Shown here: one piece after another, positions 3,287 through 4,543 of the stretch
How positions within the stretch are numbered: the stretch's first letter is position 1
Layout of the letters: every line of letters starts with the position of its first letter
IMG/VR virus record: IMGVR_UViG_3300025137_000309
Coordinates: 1 to 23,215 of that record
Reading direction: 5' to 3' (one strand)
Length of the DNA: 23,215 nucleotides
Origin: a virus
The notes under the pieces: model-generated
Told to the model about the DNA's origin: nothing
The model's database searches: none
The model's input: only the letters and a program-made list of their open reading frames with translations
Position numbers and translations under genes: made by a program

Positions 3287-3385
3287 ATGCCACACAACCA
3301 GTCAGACCGAAAACAAATAATGATTACATTTATAGTGTTTGTAAGCGGTGTTATTTTTTTAACCTTTTTACTTTCCTTAGTATGA
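3287..3385 (+). CDS. Single-pass membrane micropeptide, 32 residues
   Basis: An ATG directly after the candidate promoter opens a 32-residue frame. It has a polar, charged start (MPHNQSDRKQ) followed by about 20 hydrophobic residues (IMITFIVFVSGVIFLTFLLS) ending LV. This is a clear single transmembrane helix, probably with the N-terminus inside. Its TGA overlaps the ATG of the next gene (ATGA), which argues that it is translated and coupled to it. It may be a leader peptide for the operon or a functional membrane micropeptide such as a superinfection or lysis modulator. The sequence does not decide. Confidence 0.6.
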   Translation: MPHNQSDRKQIMITFIVFVSGVIFLTFLLSLV

Positions 3386-3753
3386 TTACCAATTTCGAAA
3401 GGGAAACCCACGAGCTTAACGGCTACGAACTAAATAAACTTCTACCTATTATAGTACAAGGACTATCGACTAAAATAGGAAAAGAAAAAGCGATCACTAA
3501 TAAGGCTATTTGTAAGGCGATGAAATCTCAAGGGTATAAACTCAACGATGCACGTCTTAGGAAGCTCATACATCACATTAGAGCGCACGACCTTATCCCT
3601 TACCTTATAGCGACGTCAAAAGGCTACTACATCGCTACAAATGGGCAAGAGGTCGAAGACTACATTAAGTCTTTGTCTGAGCGCATTAACTCTATTCAAT
3701 TTGTTAAACAATCTTTAGAAAGACAATATGCTAACCCACGGATCGCTATTTAG
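3382..3753 (+). CDS. Small winged-helix-like protein, possible regulator
   Basis: This 123-residue protein has an N-terminal segment (ELNGYELNKLLPIIVQGL) followed by KAITNKAICKAMKSQGYKL, NDARLRKLIHHIRAHDLIP and a short beta-like stretch (LIATSKGYYIAT). That order fits a winged helix, with a recognition helix in the Arg/His-rich segment and a wing at GYYIA. It shares four bases with the micropeptide and 26 with the cytosine methyltransferase downstream. A DNA-binding role in controlling this operon or modulating the methyltransferase is plausible but inferred. Confidence 0.65.
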   Translation: MITNFERETHELNGYELNKLLPIIVQGLSTKIGKEKAITNKAICKAMKSQGYKLNDARLRKLIHHIRAHDLIPYLIATSKGYYIATNGQEVEDYIKSLSERINSIQFVKQSLERQYANPRIAI

Positions 3754-4543
3754 CGGAATAGGAGGTTTTGACCTGGCTTCCGAATGGATGGGGTGGGAAA
3801 ATGTATTTCATTGCGAATACGACCCATTTTGTCAAAAGGTCCTTAAACACCATTTCCCAAACTCAAAACTATACAAAGATGTCAGAACATTCGACGCGAC
3901 AAATTACCTTGGACGAGTTGATATCCTCACGGGAGGGTTCCCTTGCCAACCATTCTCATCAGCGGGAAAGCGAAAAGGAACAGAAGACGAACGCCACTTG
4001 TGGCCCGAAATGCTTAGAGTCATTCGGGAGGTTTCCCCTCGTTACGTCGTGGGCGAAAACGTTCGCGGGTTACTTAATTGGTCGGGGGGATTGGTATTCG
4101 AAGAGGTGTGCGCTGACCTGGAAAATGAAGGCTACGAAGTCACACCGTATCTACTTCCAGCTTGCGGTAAAAACGCACCCCACCGAAGAGATCGAATTTG
4201 GTTTGTTGCAAACTCCAACGAGTGTAATGACAGACGAACATCCCGACAAGATGAGAGCGAGGGTAGCGAAGAACGGCTACAAAAACGGAACGAAGTACGG
4301 GAGTTTAGTCAGTCAGGTAAAGTATTCGGGGATGTTCCCGAGTGGAAAAACTTCCCAACTCAACCCCCTCTTTGTGGAGGAGATGATGGGCTTCCCCGAA
4401 AATTGGACGGTATCACCTTTCCAAAGTGGAGGAAAGATAGTATAAAGGCCTATGGCAACGCAATCGTTCCCGCCGTTGTTTTCGAAATTTTTAAGGCTAT
4501 TCAAAAAATGGAAGACCTAAAGAACCAAGAAGAAGAAGTTTAG
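3728..4543 (+). CDS. dcm: DNA C5-cytosine methyltransferase
   Basis: This 271-residue protein is a complete-looking DNA (cytosine-5-)-methyltransferase. It has motif I LFSGIGGFDLA (7-17), the catalytic motif IV GGFPCQPFSSAG (69-80) with Cys73 as nucleophile, motif VI VGENVRG (108-114), motif VIII RRDRIWF (153-159) and motif X YGNAIVP (242-248). It transfers a methyl group from SAM to cytosine. With no nuclease nearby it is likely an anti-restriction or self-marking enzyme. The stretch from about 163 to 205, where target recognition should lie, is unusually charged and low in hydrophobics. This coincides with a second open frame embedded in the gene. It is on the opposite strand from the structural and replication genes, suggesting separate timing. 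Confidence 0.95.
   Translation: MLTHGSLFSGIGGFDLASEWMGWENVFHCEYDPFCQKVLKHHFPNSKLYKDVRTFDATNYLGRVDILTGGFPCQPFSSAGKRKGTEDERHLWPEMLRVIREVSPRYVVGENVRGLLNWSGGLVFEEVCADLENEGYEVTPYLLPACGKNAPHRRDRIWFVANSNECNDRRTSRQDESEGSEERLQKRNEVREFSQSGKVFGDVPEWKNFPTQPPLCGGDDGLPRKLDGITFPKWRKDSIKAYGNAIVPAVVFEIFKAIQKMEDLKNQEEEV
3879..4445 (+). CDS. Embedded overlapping ORF inside the cytosine methyltransferase gene
   Basis: This 188-codon frame lies wholly inside the methyltransferase gene, in the +1 frame. The frame opens at 3768, but I choose the ATG at 3879 because the sequence becomes protein-like there (MSEHSTRQITLDELISS). Features include KCLESF, TSWAKTFAGYLIGRGDWYSK, CALTWKMKATKSHRIYFQLA, FGLLQTPTS and, near the end, LNPLFVEEMMGFPENWT. 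The Trp, Cys and Gly content looks like a folded protein, not a random shadow. I recall the same motif string from proteins linked to phage Dcm genes but could not check. The MGFPxNWT segment resembles motif IX of M.HhaI-type enzymes. Function unknown; a methyltransferase accessory or specificity partner is a guess. Overlap could also be an uninformative by-product of the methyltransferase frame. Confidence 0.5.
   Translation: MSEHSTRQITLDELISSREGSLANHSHQRESEKEQKTNATCGPKCLESFGRFPLVTSWAKTFAGYLIGRGDWYSKRCALTWKMKATKSHRIYFQLAVKTHPTEEIEFGLLQTPTSVMTDEHPDKMRARVAKNGYKNGTKYGSLVSQVKYSGMFPSGKTSQLNPLFVEEMMGFPENWTVSPFQSGGKIV

Follow-up and report, generated by a model that had tools for sequence, protein, structure and literature searches.

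M.AquI and M.EcoHK31I are exceptions to the monomeric organization of C5-cytosine methyltransferases (MTases) (PMC3404938). In M.EcoHK31I (YGGCCR), motifs I–VIII and X lie in the larger chain, where the recognition domain has also been predicted, and only motif IX lies in the smaller one; in M.AquI (CYCGRG), the small chain holds the distal variable region together with motifs IX–X (PMC3404938). Within a mycobacteriophage methylase, the ShiLan domain has been described as a hidden HNH endonuclease and a mobile, homing-type insertion (PMC11855218).

Here we describe a locus in a 23,215-nt stretch of viral DNA (the window) for which an earlier note had pointed to a 188-codon frame embedded in a cytosine MTase gene and had raised the idea of dual coding. 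We read this locus, with a probability of roughly 0.78, as a nested two-chain C5-cytosine MTase in which the frame-0 product, alpha, would be the catalytic chain (motifs I–VIII and X) and the +1-frame product, beta, would contribute a variable, DNA-recognizing region and motif IX.

Two overlapping reading frames in the window

The alpha gene (3728–4543, + strand) is intact and encodes a 271-aa C5-cytosine MTase, identified by profile searches (PF00145, 6e-49; phrog_363, 6e-76) and by matches to PDB relatives. Alignments of relatives place motif I (FSGIGGF) at 3749–3769, motif VI (ENV) at 4055–4063 and motif VIII (HRRDR) at 4181–4195, all on the + strand; motif IV (PCQPFS, 3941–3958, +), which the beta N-terminus overlaps, falls in invariant alignment columns, and motif X (GNAIVPAV, 4454–4477, +) was located from the sequence and the alignment. 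Alpha was thus found to carry what characterizes a C5-cytosine MTase at motifs I, IV (PCQ), VI (ENV), VIII and X. Canonical motif IX is absent from this chain: no LTPRE..RLQGFP occurs in the 271-aa protein, and the IX-like element lies in the +1 frame. The PF00145 match stops at residue 196, most PDB profile matches stop at about residue 167, and the PDB relatives M.HhaI and M.HaeIII align to residues 2–167 only. An AlphaFold model of alpha is confident for the core and the motif X helix, with pLDDT <50 at residues 167–179, 185–210 and 212–219; nearly all of the frame-0 interval between motifs VIII and X (4226–4384, +) is predicted to be disordered, and selection counts (below) find it weakly constrained. 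In the +1 frame, the same interval encodes the variable region of beta and, by motif counts, its motif-IX-like element. Two neighboring genes were also observed: a 123-aa ORF (3382–3753, +; phrog_2113, unknown function) overlaps the MTase start by 26 bases, and this phage contig encodes one further methyltransferase, an N6/N4-type DNA methylase (PF01555), at 88–705 on the − strand.

The beta ORF (3879–4445, +) runs in the +1 frame from an ATG at 3879 to a TAA at 4443–4445, comprises 188 codons and, as had been remarked, ends 5′ of motif X. When synonymous codons of the MTase gene were permuted, this stretch was expected to hold a mean of 4.75 stops; it holds none (P = 0.0015), which bears out the observation of a long open frame inside an intact gene, while the +2 frame, with 14 stops against 11.7 expected under the same permutation, is as full as chance predicts. 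Upstream of this ATG, no stop interrupts the +1 frame back to a TTG at 3768. Since beta starts ~142–151 nt past the MTase start in relatives, the ATG at 3879 is taken as the start in the window. The profile search that had been suggested for the peptide returned phrog_1008 (E 2.7e-17); Pfam, NCBIfam and PDB sequence searches gave no family for it, and the Pfam search found no HNH domain. Near its N-terminus (3900–3920, +), beta carries a Q-x-T-L-D-E-L motif kept in the clade of the window, at the same site as the Q[LM][TSN]LF motif of many relatives; at its C-terminal end lies the motif-IX-like element LNPLFVEEMMGFPENWT (4359–4409, +), recognized by profile alignment to canonical motif IX and by motif counts. 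The +1 peptide motifs quoted in the earlier note are those conserved in relatives. Modelled alone, beta gave a poor AlphaFold structure (pLDDT 64, pTM 0.35), and Foldseek with this low-confidence model returned no meaningful match; such a result might fit an obligate partner, a fit to which we attach no evidential weight.

An open +1 frame under selection in relatives

A tblastn search with the beta protein retrieved at least 72 phage records, including Paenibacillus, Lactobacillus, Porphyromonas, Bacteroides and E. coli phages. For comparison across relatives, we assembled from among the matches listed 321 loci (8 phage, 233 viral and 80 prophage-type loci from bacterial genomes), which are mutually related, so that counts are not independent trials; some of the 233 viral loci were chosen by frame-0 MTase similarity alone. 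A beta relative overlaps the MTase region in all 321, and the register is +1 in 320 (241/241 phage and viral loci, 79/80 prophage-type loci); the sole exception, L306, has a frame-0 ORF that ends after motif VIII. No standalone copy of beta occurs among the 321. Under the codon-permutation null, the 241 viral and phage loci would hold 6.0 stops, with a probability of 0.003 of being open, and real sequences reach 161 bits with the embedded-family profile versus 52 for permuted ones, which means that frame 0 dictates about one third of the similarity in the +1 frame but not the remainder. In a broader sample gathered with general methyltransferase patterns, and hence picked by frame 0, 69 of 75 loci are open over motifs IV–VIII, and the motif-IX-like element is present in 66 of 75. 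T4-like HhaI-type phage enzymes served as the negative control and show 3–5 stops in the +1 frame against 4.1–5.5 by chance; streptococcal-type single-chain enzymes proved unusable for this purpose because they have a +1 ORF of their own over motifs IV–VIII. Among whole genomes drawn evenly from three phyla, hits to the embedded profile at E ≤ 0.001, some of which are weak, were obtained in 6/249, 16/249 and 5/247.

The statement in the earlier note that such proteins are inconsistently annotated beside phage Dcm genes proved accurate: relatives of beta are labelled “g62 / g50 internal gene” in Paenibacillus phages Lily and Rani, “putative Mte8-like protein” in E. coli phage K1H, and elsewhere “DNA methyltransferase” or “hypothetical”. 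Several single loci are of separate interest. In L048, L252 and L259, the +1 ORF is intact but frame 0 is interrupted by a stop between motifs VIII and X; these loci could be pseudogenes, errors or further splits. On one Roseovarius MAG chromosome (OX638333.1), a single nested pair occurs five times (L285–L289), with no difference in match score among the copies. In E. coli dcm (L445, 1400–2818), the +1 frame over IV–VIII has 1 stop versus 4.3 expected (P = 0.02). L003 and many long-variant loci repeat LLPTPTASD-like units in the variable region of beta, which suggests that these regions may grow by duplication.

Selection was assessed by OLGenie-style counts on disjoint locus pairs with Jukes–Cantor correction, so that the values are approximate. 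In 72 pairs at 60–70% frame-0 identity, +1 dNN/dNS is 0.52 before and 0.57 after motif VIII, compared to 0.95 and 0.90 in the non-overlapping 5′ and 3′ controls of the same pairs; in 34 pairs at 70–85% identity, the values are 0.44/0.39 in the overlap versus 0.79/0.77 in the flanks. Furthermore, changes that are synonymous in frame 0 and alter the +1 frame (dSN) fall in the overlap to 0.28–0.34 of their 5′ level in the 60–70% pairs, compared to 0.70 past the beta stop, and to 0.41/0.42 versus 0.97 in the 70–85% pairs. The 8 pairs above 85% identity do not suffice for a clear distinction between the regions, and pairs that include the window sequence, non-independent in that they share one sequence, agree with the overall picture. 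In frame 0 itself, constraint is strong through motif VIII and again at motif X, but nearly relaxed between the two (dNN/dSN 0.67–0.77), where the +1 frame is constrained. The +1 frame is therefore under purifying selection, with synonymous suppression limited to the overlap.

Start signals point in the same direction. An in-frame ATG lies 5′ of the +1 core in 86–100% of loci (null 28–38%), and a Shine-Dalgarno-like sequence precedes the beta ATG in about 60% (null 22–23%) of a Bacillota-rich genome set and of the streptococcal-type set, as in the site-and-start example TGACAAAGGAGGATTTTTATG. In the viral set that contains the clade of the window, there is no such enrichment (15% versus 12%). 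Bacteroidota in general rarely rely on Shine-Dalgarno sequences. Bacillota-type loci provide the +1 frame with a start codon and Shine-Dalgarno site of its own, from which we infer, indirectly, that beta is translated. Selection on both frames and homologues without +1 stops, both found here, are what a genuine overlapping gene pair would be expected to display, and at the level of sequence evolution dual coding of this locus, as first raised in the earlier note, is strongly supported.

Division of motifs between the chains and rival readings

A motif-IX-like element, LNPxFVExMMGFPxxWT, is present in 97% of +1 frames compared to 0.2% of permuted ones, and in a profile comparison it can be aligned to motif IX of canonical enzymes (RKLTPREC.RLQGFPDW) with P 5e-5 and a probability of 67% over a short stretch of similarity. 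This offers moderate support for a second chain that carries motif IX, as in two-chain MTases of the EcoHK31I/AquI kind. In a Brevibacillus locus (L314) and a Bacillota MAG (L306), frame 0 stops just past motif VIII and the +1 frame continues through the IX-like element into motif X (GNAVVP); this split is also seen in the mycobacteriophages Firecracker (gp6/gp5) and Tinybot (gp78/gp77), where each half is annotated “DNA methylase”. In all, motif X was seen shifted from frame 0 to the +1 chain in the split MTases L306, L314, L327 and L328. The family phrog_1008 is matched by beta of the window, Tinybot gp77, Firecracker gp5 and the K1H Mte8-like protein, and Tinybot gp77 also matches the single-chain family phrog_116, at positions beyond those matched by alpha. 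Motif X can thus sit in either chain, which would be expected if the two chains are pieces of one enzyme.

From these observations, the nested two-chain reading can be laid out as follows. Frame 0 would yield alpha, the catalytic domain, with the weakly constrained VIII–X stretch probably serving as an unstructured linker by which motif X is reached beyond the overlap; translation of the +1 frame would start independently within the gene and yield beta, whose C-terminal half would comprise the variable, DNA-recognizing region and motif IX. Beta very probably supplies the sequence-recognizing piece missing from alpha. We infer that the two chains associate and that both are needed for an active MTase, which would probably mark the phage DNA, either to guard it from host restriction or to serve regulation. 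Against a recognition part stands the N-terminal half of beta, which overlies motifs IV–VIII and cannot stem from an MTase recognition region; given the poor model and the lack of a PDB match, a recognition-domain fold is no more than putative.

The N-terminal half is also where a second conserved feature was found. A Q[LM][TSN]LF-type motif occurs near the beta start in 65% of genome loci (null 1.7%), in 90% of streptococcal-type (canonical) loci (null 3.5%) and in 24% of a third sample (null 0.6%), in the last at more than one position, including a mid position. Its distance to the frame-0 PCQ motif takes two different values in genome and streptococcal-type loci, which shows that it is not forced by frame 0. 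It was seen in L001, L004, L248–L282, L360–L386, L447–L521 and SG4 L331, with QLSLL/QLCLL at mid position in some. The motif fits what we take to be the consensus of bacterial sliding-clamp-binding peptides. The window has QITLDEL, and its clade QxTLDEL, where no clamp-type pentapeptide QL[SD]LF is found; a clamp-like motif is accordingly proposed for the beta family and not for the copy in the window. Furthermore, in 71 single-chain, motif-IX-bearing streptococcal-type MTases (L360–L439), a +1 ORF is restricted to motifs IV–VIII and is open in 68 of 69 (null 6.5 stops). The presence of this ORF in complete enzymes that have motif IX in frame 0 implies that beta is more than a motif IX carrier. 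In the complete MTases of streptococcal phages (e.g., L332, 1486–2619), the +1 ORF starts MTSQQYQMTLF and ends near SLSDILEE..FFLS, a segment that resembles TLAQLLDP..KYIL of Dcm frame 0.

Such features lend themselves to another account, in which beta is a real overprinted protein that acts mainly as a tether or regulator of the MTase, for instance by clamp docking through an N-terminal QLTLF, and is not a recognition part. The motif lies far above null in three samples and at several offsets from frame 0, and complete single-chain enzymes also have the +1 ORF over IV–VIII; QxTLDEL, however, does not fit the pentapeptide, the clamp-binding assignment is putative and made by consensus, and the conserved motif-IX-like end is left unexplained, so that we hold this account to be possible but on the unlikely side. 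A wider and still more tentative proposal, which we think doubtful, is that beta may be an ancient accessory chain, encoded in split and complete C5-MTase genes alike, whose Q[LM][TSN]LF motif would, in many lineages, bring the enzyme to the sliding clamp of the host, with phage DNA methylated during replication.

That beta might be an independent protein, in anti-defence or another role, merely sharing DNA with the MTase appears improbable: beta has no solved homologue, and its constrained N-terminal half has no MTase counterpart, but standalone copies are lacking among the 321 loci, motif X enters beta in split relatives and the motif-IX-like element is conserved. Of the two functions guessed at in the earlier note, that of MTase partner gains from the IX-like element, the shift of motif X and the homology to the second “DNA methylase” of mycobacteriophages; the anti-defence role found no supporting evidence in this analysis and is rejected.

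A programmed frameshift joining frame 0 to the +1 frame in one chain would restore the order of motifs in canonical enzymes as far as IX, with I–VIII followed by the C-terminal half of beta, but is very improbable given that motif X is encoded in frame 0, past the beta stop, and that the N-terminal half of beta, upstream of any junction, is constrained and in Bacillota-type loci has its own start and Shine-Dalgarno site. Least credible of all is a shadow frame conserved as a by-product of frame-0 codons: permuted sequences still reach 52 bits, but the 161 bits and lack of stops in real sequences, the synonymous suppression limited to the overlap, the Shine-Dalgarno enrichment in Bacillota-type loci and the chance-level stops of T4-like HhaI-type enzymes refute it at the level of sequence evolution.

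Implications and comparison with known systems

Whatever its function, the locus is a deeply conserved, statistically well-supported dual-coding gene. If the nested two-chain reading holds, many of the “Dcm” genes of phages and prophages would each yield a two-protein enzyme from one stretch of DNA, and their specificity determinant would have been sought in the wrong frame; as the second chain is often dropped or mislabelled in annotation, cloned phage MTases may fail without beta. Natural intermediates (nested, partly overlapping and split) could show how a recognition chain passes from one frame to another. With the clamp-like motif, a direct link between phage DNA methylation and the replisome becomes testable and, if clamp docking is real, a clamp-docked phage MTase would be a bacterial counterpart of DNMT1 on PCNA.

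Our literature search found no paper on this nested MTase family. New to us are the breadth of the nested arrangement, the QLTLF motif in many relatives and the +1 ORF inside complete streptococcal-type MTases. The small-chain ORF of M.EcoHK31I is, reportedly, itself nested in the gene of the large chain in another frame; if so, this kind of arrangement would have been known since 1995, and what is new would be how widely it occurs in phages, the evidence from its evolution and the intermediates with split chains.

As described, M.EcoHK31I has a like layout, in that alpha of the window has motifs I–VIII and X and a motif IX (here IX-like) occurs only in the smaller chain. Unlike M.EcoHK31I, whose recognition domain is predicted in the large chain and which belongs to a restriction-modification system, the locus has a frame-0 VIII–X interval that looks unstructured and lies on a phage contig. 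With M.AquI it shares the use of two chains, and the small chains of L314, L306, Firecracker and Tinybot likewise hold motifs IX–X; unlike M.AquI, the window keeps motif X in the large chain and has its small chain wholly nested. The phrog_1008 “DNA methyltransferase”, the Lily “g62 internal gene” and the K1H Mte8-like protein belong to the same family as beta; phrog_1008 members are annotated without a mechanism, and the Paenibacillus annotators noted only an internal gene. Like the ShiLan domain, beta is an out-of-frame ORF within a phage methylase gene; unlike that domain, it has no HNH match and is not an insertion but overlies the catalytic core itself.
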